From Beijerinckiaceae bacterium (GTDB taxonomy: Bacteria > Pseudomonadota > Alphaproteobacteria > Rhizobiales > Beijerinckiaceae), in contig CANJPM010000002.1 of assembly GCA_947476075.1 (NCBI GenBank), positions 1 through 64,000 of the forward strand: 64,000 nucleotides of DNA, in the 5' to 3' direction. Made by a program: the position numbers and the translations under genes. The notes beneath the pieces are model-generated. The model made no database searches. It was not told the origin of the DNA and saw only the letters and a list, made by a program, of their open reading frames with translations. Shown piece by piece: positions 39,959-59,493 of the stretch; the first letter of the stretch is position 1; each line of letters starts with the position of its first letter.

Positions 39959-40792
39959 TTAACTTTGAACATTGAATTGCAATCGGTGAGCCTTGAGCAA
40001 GTCGATAATGCCCGCTGCGGTCTCCTCGATCGACCGTCTTGTTACATCAATCATCGGCCACCCATTTTTTCGAAACAGAAGCCGGGACTCAGCTATTTCG
40101 TCAGCCACAGCGTGGCGATCTACATAATTTGTGTCTTGCTGGGCGTTCAGGCCCAACAACCTGTTCTGGCGAATCTGAACGATGCGTTCGGCTGAGGCTA
40201 TCAATCCAACGATAAGTGGTTTCTGCAGCGAGAAAATATATTGCGGCGGGTCTACGCCGGGGATCAGCGGTATGTTAGCGGTCTTTACCCCACGGTTTGC
40301 AAGATAGATGCTGGTAGGCGTCTTGGACGTCCGGCTGACGCCAAGGAGCACTACATCAGCATTATCCAGATTGTCTGACGTTTGACCGTCGTCATGCATC
40401 ATCGTGAAGTTCAAAGCGTCAATTCGCTTGAAGTATTCAGCATTTAACATGTGTTGAGCACCCGGACGCGATGTTGATGCTGTACCCAGATACGCTTGAA
40501 AAGAATCAAAGATGGGCTGAAGAACTGAAAGAAATGGGCTGCCTATCTCAACGCACGCTTGTTCCAAGGTCGTCGTCAGCTCCTTATCCACTAATGTGTA
40601 GAGCACTATTCCAGGAGACGCTGCTATTTCAACAATGGCCCGCTGTAATTGAGACTGGTTTCTCACGAGCGGAAAGACATGTTCGATCGCGGCGACCCCC
40701 TGGAACTGGGCCGTAACGGCACGACTAACTGCAATCAGGGTTTCTCCGGTAGCGTCTGAAACTAGATGGAGGTGAAAATAGCTTCTCTGCAT
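39959..40792 (-). CDS. ppsR: Bifunctional kinase/pyrophosphorylase regulating PEP synthase/PPDK (DUF299)
   Basis: FHLHLVSDATGETLIAVSRAV, LLGVSRTSKTPTSIYLANRGVKTANIPLIPG. Confidence 0.94.
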   Translation of the reverse strand: MQRSYFHLHLVSDATGETLIAVSRAVTAQFQGVAAIEHVFPLVRNQSQLQRAIVEIAASPGIVLYTLVDKELTTTLEQACVEIGSPFLSVLQPIFDSFQAYLGTASTSRPGAQHMLNAEYFKRIDALNFTMMHDDGQTSDNLDNADVVLLGVSRTSKTPTSIYLANRGVKTANIPLIPGVDPPQYIFSLQKPLIVGLIASAERIVQIRQNRLLGLNAQQDTNYVDRHAVADEIAESRLLFRKNGWPMIDVTRRSIEETAAGIIDLLKAHRLQFNVQS

Positions 40793-40929
40793 CTGGGTTA
40801 TTCCGAACCTGTGGGTAAACCAACGCGGAGAGCGCGCGATAGTGCAAAACTAAGGAAATTTCGAGGCGTCGTCTGCAGAATAACTCATAAACCCATCTAC
40901 GCATCAACATGCGTTGGCCGGATTGATAC

Positions 40930-41300
40930 GGTGAGTAGAGGGCAACGTCGACGTTTCCGCATGCTCATTCTTTTTTGCGATGCGTGTATGAACCATTAAG
41001 ATTTTGTTAATCCTACTATTATGGGTTTATCCCATAAAAAGTTTTAACTTTTTGTTGATGAATCGGTTGTGGATGAATTGGGGATAGCTAACCAGTTTCG
41101 TGAACCCCCAGAAATCTTCTTCAAACAGAAAAAACATTCAAAGAAAACTCTTCAATTTTAAAAGATGCCGACAGGTCTCCTGAGGAGAATTCAGAGCGTA
41201 AAACGCTTAGTATAACCAAATGAGAGTTATAACTAATTGAATATAAAGAGTAAAATTAGACGGATCTTTATTTAGTGTAATTCTGAATTCATCATCCAAT
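40930..41300. promoter_or_regulatory. Candidate chromosomal replication origin (oriC)
   Basis: AT-rich intergenic region between divergent ppsR and rho, with TTAA-N7-TTAA (40996-41010), a one-mismatch DnaA box (41068-41076), GANTC sites and an adjacent parS/parAB region. Confidence 0.6.
40996..41010. promoter_or_regulatory. CtrA-type binding motif
   Basis: TTAA-GATTTTG-TTAA matches TTAA-N7-TTAA exactly. Confidence 0.6.
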
Positions 41301-41499
41301 AGGAGCCTGGTTTTCTCAAAAGACAGCACCAGCTTGCGTCCTGACAAGAATCGATCTATCTCTCAAACCTCACCTGATGACAAGACCGCTCCATTCTCAG
41401 GCAGCGCTGGTTCTTGTGGCGGCTTTTAGGCGCCTTCTTCATTTATATCGCTCTTAGCTAGGCTGAGCTTCTTGGTCTCGGTTTTTTAAGGATGTTCCC

Positions 41500-42768
41500 A
41501 TGCGGGAAATCAAACTTCACGAATTGAAACTAAAGTCGCCGACTGAACTCTTGTCCTTTGCAGAGGAACATGAGGTCGAGAATGCTTCTATTATGCGCAA
41601 ACAAGAATTAATGTTCGCCATTCTAAAGCAACTTGCTAGTAAAGACATTGAAATCGTTGGTGTTGGTGTCGTTGAGGTGTTGCAGGACGGGTTTGGATTT
41701 CTGAGATCTGCCGATGCGAACTATCTCGCAGGGCCGGATGATATTTATATTTCGCCATCACAAATCCGCCGATTTGGTCTACGCACTGGCGATACTGTTG
41801 AAGGCCTTATCCGGAGCCCAAAAGAAGGGGAGCGTTATTTTGCTCTTCTGAAAGTTAATACAATCAATTTTGAGGATCCCGAAAAGGCTCGGCATAAGGT
41901 CCATTTCGATAATCTGACGCCGCTCTATCCTGATGAGCGTTTGAAGTTGGAAATCGAGGATCCGACACGGAAAGATTTTTCGTCCCGCGTAATTGATATC
42001 GTTGCGCCTATCGGCAAGGGGCAGAGAGCGCTTATCGTCGCGCCGCCTCGCACGGGCAAAACTGTTCTGCTTCAAAATATAGCGCAATCGATCACGACAA
42101 ATCATCCTGAGTGCTATCTTATCGTCCTACTAATTGATGAACGGCCTGAGGAAGTCACCGACATGCAAAGGTCCGTGAAGGGTGAAGTCGTCTCCTCCAC
42201 ATTCGATGAGCCAGCTGTCCGCCACGTGCAGGTTGCGGAAATGGTTATTGAGAAAGCTAAACGCTTAGTTGAGCATGGCCGTGATGTAGTGATTCTTCTT
42301 GATTCAATTACGCGCCTTGGTCGTGCTTACAACACAGTTGTTCCGTCGTCGGGAAAAGTCTTGACTGGCGGTGTTGATGCAAATGCGTTGCAGCGTCCAA
42401 AGCGCTTTTTTGGTGCTGCGCGTAACATCGAAGAGGGCGGGTCGTTAACAATCATCGCCACAGCGCTGATTGATACTGGCTCTCGTATGGATGAAGTGAT
42501 CTTCGAAGAATTTAAGGGGACCGGCAATAGCGAAATCATTCTTGATCGCAAGGTTGCTGATAAGCGCGTATTTCCCGCTATTGACATAACAAGATCTGGC
42601 ACGCGCAAGGAAGAACTTCTGGTTCCCGCTGACATTCTGAAAAAGATGTACGTCTTGCGCAGAATTCTAAATCCTATGGGAACTGTGGATGCGATCGAAT
42701 TTCTTCTGGGCAAACTGCGGGAAACCCCAAAGGGAAATATCACATTCTTCGACTCGATGAATACGTAG
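41500..42768 (+). CDS. rho: Transcription termination factor Rho
   Basis: [86 protein letters not shown]. Confidence 0.98.
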
Positions 42769-44132: not shown

Positions 44133-44148
44133 TGTTTCACGTGAAACA
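44133..44148. promoter_or_regulatory. parS centromere-like site, perfect
   Basis: TGTTTCACGTGAAACA, exact 16-bp palindrome between mnmE and mnmG, 2.6 kb upstream of parA. Confidence 0.95.
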
Positions 44149-46060: not shown

Positions 46061-46704
46061 TACCAGATCAAGCTTGGCTTCGATTTAGTGAAGCTACTCC
46101 GGTTTCACGTGAAACATTTGAACGACTTGAAATTTATCACAATCTCCTCCTGAAATGGTCCAAGATTAAGAATCTGGTGGCGCCAAATACGCTTCATCTC
46201 GTTTGGTCGCGTCATTTTGCCGATAGCCTTCAGCTACGGCCGCTGATGCAAGATTCGCAGAGCATCGTCGATCTTGGTTCAGGCGCTGGATTTCCCGGGC
46301 TGATTCTCGCGATAGAGATGCGAAGCCGACAAGGCGCAATTGTTCATCTGATAGAATCTGATAATCGCAAATGCGCTTTTCTTCGCGAGGTTATCCGTGA
46401 GACGGACGCCCCAGCCATTGTTCATTGCGGAAGAATTGAAGAGGTGGCGCCTAAGCTCCCAACACCGGATCTAGTAACGGCAAGGGCACTCGCGTCTCTG
46501 GACAAATTGATAAATCTGTCTGCGCGTCATATCTCTGCCGGAGCTACGGGCGTGTTTCTAAAGGGGCAGGATTTCCAGTCCGAATTGACCGTGGCCCAGT
46601 CGACCTGTACGTTCGAATTTGATGTCGTTCAGAGTCGAACGGATCCCGCTGCCGGGATCATATTGGTGCGATCTGCAGCATCCGCCAGTCACTCGAGGAC
46701 TTAA
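46057..46704 (+). CDS. rsmG: 16S rRNA (guanine-N7)-methyltransferase RsmG (GidB)
   Basis: [53 protein letters not shown]. Confidence 0.96.
46101..46116. promoter_or_regulatory. Second parS-like site, inside the rsmG coding region
   Basis: GGTTTCACGTGAAACA, one mismatch to TGTTTCACGTGAAACA; 14-bp palindrome core intact. Confidence 0.9.
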
Positions 46705-46725
46705 CCATTGCCTGAGCGAAATCCG

Positions 46726-47523
46726 ATGCGTGTAATCGTGCTAGCTAATCAAAAGGGTGGCGTTGGCAAAACGACCACGGCGATTAATTTGGGGACGGCC
46801 CTCGCGGCAATCGGCGAGAAGGTGCTTATTGTAGACCTTGATCCTCAAGGCAATGCGTCTACCGGCCTTGGAATTGACAGGCGAAACCGAACTATTTCAA
46901 CATATCATGTGCTGCGTCAGGAAGCTGGACTTTACGATGTGGCGCGCCCCACGGCGGTTCCTCGACTGTTCGTAGCACCGTCTACGCTGGATTTGCTTGG
47001 CGTAGAGTTGGAAATAGCCTCCGAAGGTGATCGCACTTTCAGGATGAAGAAGGCTATAGAAATTCTAGGCAAAGAGCCCCGACTCGAGTCGGATCCGTTT
47101 ACATATGTTTTATTCGATTGTCCGCCGTCCTTGAATCTCCTGACGATCAATGCCCTTGCAGCTTCGAATAGCGTCCTGGTGCCCCTTCAGTGTGAATTCT
47201 TCGCTCTGGAGGGGCTTTCCCAATTGCTTTCGACTATCGAGCACGTCAAGCGGACGCTTAATCCCGAACTGACAATCCATGGCGTCGTTCTTACGATGTA
47301 TGACCCTCGCAACAATCTGGCCACGCAAGTGGCTGCTGATGTGCGTCAGTTCATGGGGGATCAAGTCTACGATACAATTATTCCCAGGAACGTCCGTGTC
47401 TCTGAAGCGCCATCCCATGGCAAACCCGTTCTGCTATATGATCTCAAGTGCAGCGGTAGCCAAGCGTATCTGAAGCTTGCGTCTGAATTGATCCAGCGTG
47501 AAAGGCGGCTTAAGGCCGCATGA
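46726..47523 (+). CDS. parA: Chromosome-partitioning ATPase ParA
   Basis: MRVIVLANQKGGVGKTTTAINLGTALAA, DLDPQGNASTGLG, LFDCPPSLNLLTINAL. Confidence 0.97.
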   Translation: MRVIVLANQKGGVGKTTTAINLGTALAAIGEKVLIVDLDPQGNASTGLGIDRRNRTISTYHVLRQEAGLYDVARPTAVPRLFVAPSTLDLLGVELEIASEGDRTFRMKKAIEILGKEPRLESDPFTYVLFDCPPSLNLLTINALAASNSVLVPLQCEFFALEGLSQLLSTIEHVKRTLNPELTIHGVVLTMYDPRNNLATQVAADVRQFMGDQVYDTIIPRNVRVSEAPSHGKPVLLYDLKCSGSQAYLKLASELIQRERRLKAA

Positions 47524-47536
47524 AGGTGTCGATAGC

Positions 47537-48421
47537 ATGGCTGATGAGATAAGACCCAGGCTTGGTCGTGGCCTAGCCGCATTATTAGGCGAATTGCCGT
47601 CCGCTACCGCAACGGGTGATTCGGATCGGGGACTGAGGCAGGTTCCTACCGTGTTCTTGCGCCCGAACCCCCGTAATCCCCGCCGGACGTTTGTGGAAGC
47701 TGATCTTTCAGATCTTGTCGATTCAGTTCGCGAGAAGGGTATTATTCAACCAATTTTAGCCCGTAAGACGTCATCTGATGGAGAGTTTTACGAAATCATA
47801 GCAGGTGAGCGCAGGTGGCGTGCTGCCCAACGCGCTGGCCTGCATGAAGTGCCGGTCGTTACAATTGAGGCGACAGATAAAGAAACGCTCGAGCTGGCGA
47901 TAATTGAAAATGTCCAGAGAGCCGATCTTAATCCTATTGAAGAAGCTCTTGGATATCAGCAGCTTCTGAGCGAGTTCGCCTATACGCAGGCTGATCTTTC
48001 AAAGATTGTTGGTAAAAGTCGCAGCCACGTCACCAATATGCTGAGACTTCTGAAGCTCTCGGACGCAACTCGTGGTTTGCTGGAAACAGGATTAATAAGC
48101 GCTGGACATGCTCGTGCTCTTCTCACAACCAAAGATTCTGATGCCATGGCTCAGATGGTGGTTAATAAAGGATTGAGCGTTCGCGATATCGAGCGGCTAG
48201 CACGCGATGAGCACGCTGGTATCGACCCTGCTGTTACGAAACCCACGGTCACTAAACGTCAAAAAGATCCAAACATCGCGATGTTGGAGCGCGACCTTTG
48301 CGAAGCGACAGGTTTTTTAGTGTCGATCGAATATAAGAATGAACGCGGGCGCGTCATTGTCGGTTATGAGAGCATGGAGCAACTGGAGCATATCCTTGCC
48401 AATCTCAAGCATATCTCCTAG
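47537..48421 (+). CDS. parB: Chromosome-partitioning protein ParB
   Basis: RLGRGLAALLGE, RPNPRNPRRTF, GIIQPILARK, YEIIAGERRWRAAQRAGLHEVPV, ENVQRADLNPIEEALGYQQL, GKSRSHVTNMLRLLKL. Confidence 0.97.
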   Translation: MADEIRPRLGRGLAALLGELPSATATGDSDRGLRQVPTVFLRPNPRNPRRTFVEADLSDLVDSVREKGIIQPILARKTSSDGEFYEIIAGERRWRAAQRAGLHEVPVVTIEATDKETLELAIIENVQRADLNPIEEALGYQQLLSEFAYTQADLSKIVGKSRSHVTNMLRLLKLSDATRGLLETGLISAGHARALLTTKDSDAMAQMVVNKGLSVRDIERLARDEHAGIDPAVTKPTVTKRQKDPNIAMLERDLCEATGFLVSIEYKNERGRVIVGYESMEQLEHILANLKHIS

Positions 48422-56894: not shown

Positions 56895-59399
56895 CTAGTC
56901 CCCGGGAAGTCCAAAAGCTCCCCTGTCGATCCCGCCGCCAACCAGAATTTCGCGCTTACCGGCGTGGTTGGACGGTCCCACAACTCCCTCCTCCTCCATT
57001 CTCTCGACAAGCGAAGCAGCCTTGTTGTAGCCAACAGACAGACGACGCTGGATGTAGCTGGTCGAGCATTTTCCATCTCTGAGGACGATAGCGACGGCTT
57101 TGTCGTAAAGCTCTGCCGATTCGTCGCCAAAGGCTGCAACCGCAGGCGTCACCTCTTCAGAATCAACCTCGTCCTCAATCGTGATAGCGTCGAGGTAGTC
57201 TGGCTGACCCTGCGTCTTCAAGTGAGCAACGATTTTCTCTACTTCATCATCGGACACAAACGGACCGTGTACGCGAGCAATTCTCCCTCCCCCTGCCATG
57301 TAAAGCATATCACCTTGGCCAAGTAACTGCTCCGCTCCTTGCTCGCCCAAGATCGTGCGGCTATCGATTTTTGAGGTGACCTGAAATGAAACACGAGTCG
57401 GAAAATTAGCCTTGATTGTGCCGGTTATCACATCGACGGAAGGCCTCTGGGTCGCCATGATCAGGTGGATGCCCGCAGCTCTTGCCATTTGTGCAAGCCT
57501 TTGGATGGCACCCTCAATATCCTTACCTGCGACCATCATAAGATCGGCCATTTCGTCGACGATAACTACGATATAGGGCAGCGGCGACATATCCATATCT
57601 TCCCGCTCGTAAATCGCCTCGCCGGTCTGGCGATCAAAGCCTGTCTGGACAGTGCGAGAAATAGATTGCCCCTTGCTTCTAGCTTCAACAATACGGGCAT
57701 TGAAGCCGTCAATGTTACGAACGCCGAGCTTCGACATTTTTTTGTACCGGTCCTCCATCTCCCGGACGGCCCATTTCATGGCAACAACCGCCTTCTTTGA
57801 ATCTGTAACGACCGGGGTCAAAAGATGGGGAATGCCGTCGTAAACAGAGAGCTCGAGCATTTTCGGATCGACCATGATCAGCCTGCATTCTTCAGGCTTG
57901 AGGCGATACAAAAGTGAAAGAATGAATGTGTTGATAGCGACGGATTTACCTGATCCAGTTGTACCAGCAACTAACAAGTGCGGCATACGCGTCAAGTCGA
58001 CAATCACTGGCTCACCGCCTATTGTCTTTCCAAGAGCGATAGCAAGCTTGTATTTACTTGCCTCAAAGTCCTGCGATGCAATTAGTTCCCGCAAGAAGAC
58101 AGTCTCTCGAAGCTGATTGGGAAGCTCGATGCCAATTGCATTGCGACCCTGGACCACCGCCACGCGCGCCGAGATAGCAGACATTGAGCGAGCGATGTCG
58201 TCAGCGAGTCCGATAACACGGGATGATTTAATTCCGGGAGCCGGCTCCAACTCGTACAATGTGACAACCGGACCGGGGCGCACATTTACTATTTCCCCCT
58301 TCACTCCGAAATCATCAAGCACTCCTTCGAGTAAACGTGCGTTTTGTTCAAGAGATTCGGCCGAAAGCTTTCCGGCATTTGTTCGCTTTGGCTCCATAAG
58401 AAGGGCCAAGGGCGGCAGTTCAAAAGTATCCGCCTCAAGCAACGAAGGTTGCGCTTCCCTCGCGGCGCGAACTCCGAGCTTAATCTTTCCAGGAGTAGGG
58501 CCGATGACTATCTTGTCATTACGTAAATCCAATGGCGCTTCATTTACATGATCAGATGTAACCTGCACCGTCGCCCGCTGAGAGATTGAGACGCTACCCG
58601 GAAAGCTTGGTTCTTTGCGAGAGTAACTTATAGTGGAATCTGTCTTTCGCGCCTTTGAAAAAAATACGGGCTTAGAAATGTACCTGAAAAGTCTAGCCTT
58701 AAGGCTCAAAACCGCATGCGTTATTGCACCAAGAGATACCAGTGCAACTCCTGGCTCATTAACCTCATCGGCGCTCTCTGGCGTGACTTGATTTCGATGC
58801 TTGCTTGTTCGCGATTCAATTTCGTCTGGCGATATCTTCCTCGCAACGGGGCTCGCCGCAGCCGATAGTGCGATGATTGCTCCGACAGCAAAAACAAGCG
58901 CTGAGACAAGCGACCCAAAATGAGCGCCGTCTATCAGGATACGCGGCAGCGTAATCATGGCGTCGCCTACGACTCCTCCCAGGCCAGTCGGCATTGGCCA
59001 GTTTGCCGTGACTGGGAGTAAGGATGCTAGGGCAGCAGTGCATGCAGAACCACAAAAAAGAAACGTAATTCTTCCGACAAACCGATCCAGTCGGTGATGA
59101 GCCATCAAGTGCCATCCCCAAATGGCAACTGGGGTCAGCAGAGCCAAAGCGCTCATGCCCCAAATTTGCATGATGAGATCCCCCATAAGCGCGCCTGGCG
59201 CCCCAAGGAGATTTCTAACAGCGCCGTCGTGAGCGTAATTCAGGGTAGGATCTTGAGCCGACCATGTTACGAGCGACAATGCAGCCGCTAGAACGCCGAT
59301 CACGAGACCCGCCCCGATCACTTCCGTCAACCTATTGGTGACGTAGATTTTGGCGGTGTCGGGTATTCTATCAAAGGCGAAAAAACTAGTCGTGCGCAT
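56895..59399 (-). CDS. ftsK: DNA translocase FtsK
   Basis: Multi-TM N-terminus; GKTIGGEPVIVDLTRMPHLLVAGTTGSGKSVAIN, MATQRPSVDVITGTIKANFPTRVSFQVTSKIDSRTILGEQGAEQLLGQGDMLYM, gamma domain CSTSYIQRRLSVGYNKAASLVERMEEEGVV. Confidence 0.97.
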   Translation of the reverse strand: MRTTSFFAFDRIPDTAKIYVTNRLTEVIGAGLVIGVLAAALSLVTWSAQDPTLNYAHDGAVRNLLGAPGALMGDLIMQIWGMSALALLTPVAIWGWHLMAHHRLDRFVGRITFLFCGSACTAALASLLPVTANWPMPTGLGGVVGDAMITLPRILIDGAHFGSLVSALVFAVGAIIALSAAASPVARKISPDEIESRTSKHRNQVTPESADEVNEPGVALVSLGAITHAVLSLKARLFRYISKPVFFSKARKTDSTISYSRKEPSFPGSVSISQRATVQVTSDHVNEAPLDLRNDKIVIGPTPGKIKLGVRAAREAQPSLLEADTFELPPLALLMEPKRTNAGKLSAESLEQNARLLEGVLDDFGVKGEIVNVRPGPVVTLYELEPAPGIKSSRVIGLADDIARSMSAISARVAVVQGRNAIGIELPNQLRETVFLRELIASQDFEASKYKLAIALGKTIGGEPVIVDLTRMPHLLVAGTTGSGKSVAINTFILSLLYRLKPEECRLIMVDPKMLELSVYDGIPHLLTPVVTDSKKAVVAMKWAVREMEDRYKKMSKLGVRNIDGFNARIVEARSKGQSISRTVQTGFDRQTGEAIYEREDMDMSPLPYIVVIVDEMADLMMVAGKDIEGAIQRLAQMARAAGIHLIMATQRPSVDVITGTIKANFPTRVSFQVTSKIDSRTILGEQGAEQLLGQGDMLYMAGGGRIARVHGPFVSDDEVEKIVAHLKTQGQPDYLDAITIEDEVDSEEVTPAVAAFGDESAELYDKAVAIVLRDGKCSTSYIQRRLSVGYNKAASLVERMEEEGVVGPSNHAGKREILVGGGIDRGAFGLPGD

Positions 59400-59477: not shown

Positions 59478-59493
59478 TTAATAGCTCATTAAC
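59478..59493. promoter_or_regulatory. CtrA-type binding motif upstream of ftsK
   Basis: TTAA-TAGCTCA-TTAA-C, 79 bp upstream of the ftsK ORF start. Confidence 0.6.

Follow-up and report, generated by a model that had tools for sequence, protein, structure and literature searches.

Judged from sequence comparison, the 707 bp that separate ppsR from rho very probably form the chromosomal replication origin of this uncultured Beijerinckiaceae bacterium, and we read the gap with good confidence as a Cori-type oriC that lacks its usual neighbour hemE and in which a CtrA-type site would gate the initiation by DnaA. The window analysed here, bases 1-64000 of a 68.6-kb contig, comes from a draft genome of 357 contigs and 3.87 Mb, whose nearest named relatives by PpsR are Beijerinckiaceae and Hyphomicrobiales metagenome genomes. 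The initial annotation had proposed a candidate oriC with a CtrA-type site at this place, and the proposal holds up as the best reading, with most of its support coming from relatives; every motif it listed is found where it was placed, and the gene orientation flips at the gap as it described. The gap itself is non-coding, with no open reading frame of at least 100 aa; an Rfam scan of it returned no match, and promoter and terminator scans of it stayed at about chance level. Comparison between genomes establishes the position of the gap, the skew step in a congener, the footprint of the CtrA-type box and the regulon-like distribution of that box. The features are collected in Table 1.

Table 1. 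Coordinates of the proposed origin, its sequence elements and the neighbouring genes in the 64,000-nucleotide window.
Feature	Position	Strand	Remark
dnaA	7586..9103	+	33 kb from proposed origin
ppsR (COG1806/DUF299), left boundary	39959..40792	-	
Proposed oriC, whole ppsR-rho gap	40793..41499	.	From ORFs, homology to the G022 ppsR-hemE gap at the skew step, and known Cori position
AT-rich stretch, candidate unwinding element	40967..41300	.	Holds the lowest-GC 300-mer; an AT-rich block also follows the box in relatives
Exact CtrA-type box TTAA-GATTTTG-TTAA (TTAAGATTTTGTTAA)	40996..41010	.	
Inverted repeat TTATGGG-TTTAT-CCCATAA	41019..41037	.	Probably incidental
Imperfect second CtrA-type box TTAA-CTTTTTG-TTGA, 1 mismatch	41044..41058	.	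48 nt after the first; direct repeat D1; weak
15-bp tandem repeat TTGTTGATGAATCGG / TTGTGGATGAATTGG	41052..41081	+	One DnaA-box-like and one degenerate copy; direct repeat D2
DnaA-box-like 9-mer TCATCCACA	41068..41076	-	One mismatch to TTATCCACA
rho, right boundary	41500..42768	+	
parS TGTTTCACGTGAAACA, exact	44133..44148	.	Between mnmE and mnmG
Second parS-like site, 1 mismatch	46101..46116	.	Exact counterpart in G022
parA and parB	46708..48421 (46708-47523, 47498-48421)	+	
Only other exact TTAA-N7-TTAA of the window	59478..59492	.	79 bp upstream of ftsK (56895-59399, -; FtsK NCBIfam match)

The location of the putative origin is well supported, mainly by one good congener, by synteny and by the known position of Cori, which in Caulobacter lies between COG1806 (ppsR) and hemE (PMC1914354). 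The present gap has the ppsR boundary of this arrangement and lacks hemE, which most relatives keep at the homologous gap. With the assembly split into so many contigs and no clear skew step along the one that holds the window, the whole-chromosome test was borrowed from relatives. In G022, a nearly closed congener of two contigs (the chromosomal one of 5.94 Mb), all 29 of the 29 tested window genes, ubiE and dnaA through ubiH, stand in the same order and direction around the ppsR-hemE gap. The GC skew of this genome is -0.019 left of dnaA and -0.0045 from dnaA to ppsR, and it rises to +0.052 on the right side of the ppsR-hemE gap; its best step is a flat optimum at 4.509-4.521 Mb, with the gap at 4,517,332-4,517,843 and a bootstrap interval (4,506,951-4,516,001) that ends 1.3 kb before the gap, and the cumulative skew, from samples along the contig and with the trend removed, is lowest at 4.515 Mb and highest nearly opposite, at 1.415 Mb. 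The initial annotation had named a skew minimum elsewhere, for example near dnaA, as the finding that would speak against an origin here; in G022 the skew switches sign at the homologous gap, as at a bacterial origin, and dnaA is 52 kb away.

The other genomes vary in this respect. The skew of G024 is -0.0435 on the rho side, -0.0165 from the gap to dnaA and +0.012 beyond dnaA, so that the change is shared about equally between two steps, one at the gap and one at dnaA, and the best single change-point falls closer to dnaA than to the gap; the best step of G001 (87,001) lies within its gap and is weak, G007, with a weak step 12 kb from the gap, is uninformative, and 19 skew samples of G055, from another family, gave no readable pattern. 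Clusters of TGTGGA pairs, tried genome-wide as an oriC locator, were scattered in all genomes and of no use. If the gap were simply a long, ordinary intergenic region with divergent promoters and replication started elsewhere, for example at dnaA on the same contig, this could account for the single DnaA-like box of the gap and for the skew of the window's own contig, which is uninformative and has its single best change-point close to dnaA, at 9 kb, but running the opposite way. Yet the dnaA-ppsR stretch of G022 is nearly neutral in skew and the main step stands at the gap, the DNA between rpsT and dnaA contains a single DnaA box with 1 mismatch and lacks an AT-rich minimum, and both the known Cori position and the proximity of parS favour the ppsR-rho gap, so that we regard a start elsewhere as very improbable. 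Counted from the start of rho, the two parS sites are 2.6 and 4.6 kb away, and an exact parS is also found near the homologous gap in G022, G024, G001 and G007. On the other side of the gap, ppsR and coaE overlap at 39959-39972, where the two genes are about 600 bp apart in most relatives, leaving space for a gene such as maf; the PpsR of this genome sits on a long end branch (0.31 versus a median of 0.05), which suggests fast evolution of the lineage or of the gene.

The exact TTAA-N7-TTAA box, first pointed out in the initial annotation, is present in the gap and conserved as a phylogenetic footprint, as expected of a Cori-type origin. At the genome rate (24 in 3.87 Mb) 0.004 exact boxes would be expected in 707 bp, and 4% of the dinucleotide-shuffled versions of the gap contain one. 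Among 32 genus-level gaps (a dereplicated set with PpsR identity of at least 71%, a few rows of which possibly lie outside the genus proper) 17 carry the exact box, and 28 of the 87 wider gaps do so, where dinucleotide shuffles give 0.25 and 0.45, respectively; any other spacer of 0-20 reaches at most 3 and 4 in the two sets, and 876 kb of the same loci outside the gaps hold no exact box. The box keeps its position in hemE-bearing and hemE-less gaps alike, at a median distance of 223 nt (sd 19) from the start of ppsR, and its 7-bp spacer varies, with a mean pairwise identity of 0.43. Therefore, by its fixed place, variable spacer and rarity outside the gaps, the box resembles a protein-binding site under selection. 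The exact box is missing from about half of the genus-level gaps, and its state changes at least 16 times on the PpsR tree of the 87 rows, so it has often been gained or lost. The imperfect second box of the window overlaps the first DnaA-like repeat.

Across the whole assembly the exact 15-mer occurs 24 times, versus 13 times for an N8 control. Inspection of 20 of the 22 exact boxes outside the window gave a mixed list: some lie upstream of rpoD, minC (TIGR01222), rcdA (NF051867) and flagellin, one upstream of cckA (best match NF046020, a fragment below the cut-off) and one by a PdhS-like kinase (weak match), and several are near xseA, mutL, transport and outer-membrane genes, or within reading frames. 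To our knowledge, none of xseA, mutL, the transport genes or the outer-membrane genes has a link to CtrA. The ftsK-upstream box of the window is conserved in G001, G007, G022 and G024 and likely marks a CtrA-controlled ftsK promoter. This regulon-like distribution supports CtrA as the probable binding protein of the 15-mer. A CtrA orthologue is encoded at G000:C31:12039-12707, its identity resting on the match to profile NF045991 (420.7 bits versus a cut-off of 350), and the genome also encodes GcrA and a protein with a RAMA domain, as in CcrM (CcrM-type).

The presence of the same box upstream of genes elsewhere in the genome, together with its conserved distance from the ppsR start, would also be expected if the gap were oriC and the box served ppsR (or formerly hemE) as a CtrA-regulated promoter element, with no role in replication. 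We consider this unlikely, since some 200 bp to the start codon is far compared with the box-to-start distances of 44-92 bp for ftsK, rpoD, minC and rcdA, and since the box stays in mid-gap with or without hemE, beside enriched TCCACA boxes and an AT-rich block.

Within the gap, the 300-mer 41001-41300 has the lowest GC (0.323) of the 68.6-kb contig, in agreement with the AT-richness of a Cori-type origin. In many congeners (for example the gaps L024 and L043) the CtrA box is succeeded by a block resembling AATAAGAAGAAAAAGAAGATC-AAAGATCTTT, possibly an unwinding element; the block is poorly kept in the window. The 9-mer TGTGGATGA, noted initially as one mismatch from the DnaA box, is present at 41068-41076, and a single 9-mer of this kind means little by itself. 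In place of several DnaA boxes the gap holds one TCATCCACA and its degenerate neighbour, and its one TCCACA 6-mer is fewer than in most congeners, the genus-level gaps having 0-4 per 480 bp. Across the 87 homologous gaps, TCCACA is 13-fold denser than outside, and TCATCCACA, found 15 times as the third commonest TCCACA 9-mer, is 18-fold denser. These 87 gaps contain just 4 copies of the E. coli consensus TTATCCACA; few consensus boxes are therefore usual for such origins, and not unusual as had been suggested, though the gap of the window is one of the poorer ones. The DnaA of the window retains an intact 11-letter box-recognition motif, which we take to be its means of reading the box.

Other motifs of the gap add little to this picture. 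The IHF consensus WATCAN5WTR, mildly enriched in genus-level gaps, has 0 matches in the ppsR-rho gap, which is weak evidence since IHF sites are degenerate. The GAATC sites do occur, at 41060 and also at 41348, beyond the span originally described, but they are not enriched: the 2 GANTC sites of the gap give 2.8/kb against a background of 2.9/kb, where the gaps of relatives reach 7.1/kb against 2.9/kb. The 7-bp palindrome likewise exists but has no counterpart in relatives, and it was rejected as a functional element, the fold of its surroundings being no better than that of shuffles (z = -1.0).

The absence of hemE from the ppsR-rho junction, already remarked in the initial annotation, is confirmed. 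In most relatives hemE stands between rho and the gap 5' of ppsR, and in a subset without hemE the gap leads to rho. If the origin had moved away with hemE, the ppsR-rho gap would be a decayed former origin, in keeping with its lack of hemE and hemJ (the latter now on contig C3) and its few DnaA boxes. The present hemE, however, is found on contig C86 within a crt/dxs-type cluster, where 58 bp separate it from the cytochrome gene ahead of it and neither ppsR nor an AT-rich gap accompanies it, and from this locus an origin travelling with hemE was rejected. The gap beside ppsR, by contrast, has retained the box, the AT-rich block and its neighbouring parS sites, and the hemE-less congeners G001 and G007 retain the box and TCCACA boxes, which makes a decayed origin exceedingly improbable. 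Some further observations concern hemE itself. Its place behind the cytochrome gene in a carotenoid/dxs-type cluster is locus L157 (G000:C86, 9768-11363), and related species, too, have lost hemE from the origin junction. The origin-side hemE of G024 (L260, L264; G024:C9:486336-487290) lies in two pieces, which may reflect a disrupted gene or a frameshift in sequencing, and G029 carries a hemE at the origin and a further copy at another place (L257 on G029:C2, L262 on G029:C13), possibly an intermediate of relocation.

Taking the gap as a Cori-type oriC, we propose that DnaA could load on the weak TCCACA-type boxes at about 41053-41076 and open the adjacent AT-rich stretch. CtrA~P bound at 40996-41010, perhaps together with the imperfect site at 41044-41058, would hold initiation back, and by analogy with Caulobacter it may compete with DnaA until CtrA is cleared at G1/S. 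The new origins could then be segregated by ParB acting at the two parS sites.

Whether direct silencing of the origin by CtrA extends beyond Caulobacter-like and Rickettsia-like bacteria is an unsettled question in the evolution of the alphaproteobacterial cell cycle, and among the results listed in our search of the open-access literature there was no paper on oriC and CtrA in Beijerinckiaceae. We lean slightly towards the view that direct CtrA gating at oriC is conserved in this Hyphomicrobiales genus, with scattered cases in Stappia and others, contrary to Sinorhizobium meliloti and Brucella, and that it has been repeatedly gained or lost. If so, the box would extend the Caulobacter-type arrangement into an order whose two studied members reportedly lack CtrA control of the origin. 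A genus with the box at a fixed place in about half of its species and missing in the rest also offers a natural comparison and shows which relatives to test. In practical terms, ppsR appears to be a safe marker of oriC in this family, and hemE does not.

Among known systems, the gap resembles the Cori of Caulobacter crescentus (hemE / COG1806/CC0001) in its COG1806 boundary, its AT-richness, its DnaA-box-like sequences, its TTAA-N7-TTAA box and the nearby parA/parB and parS, but differs from it in having no hemE at the junction, one exact and one imperfect CtrA box versus the five of Caulobacter, no match to the IHF consensus and fewer DnaA boxes. It is also like the origins of Rickettsia prowazekii and Wolbachia (hemE/COG1806 or COG1253/hemE), which have CtrA boxes in an AT-rich gap of the same neighbourhood and whose boundary genes can be rearranged (PMC1914354); these bacteria keep hemE, whereas here ppsR is kept, hemE is gone and rho adjoins. 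In Hyphomonas neptunium CtrA binds a site next to the origin, as determined by ChIP-seq (PMC7200025); that is another lineage, experimentally mapped, while the binding proposed here is predicted from the sequence. Sinorhizobium meliloti, like the present bacterium, has a Hyphomicrobiales chromosome with CtrA, and depletion of its CtrA leads to over-replication; its chromosomal oriC, however, is reported to have neither a CtrA motif nor CtrA binding (PMC4433202), and the CtrA of Brucella reportedly does not bind the origin (PMC2877005). Therefore, it is the conserved box at the origin of a Hyphomicrobiales genus that makes the present case of interest.
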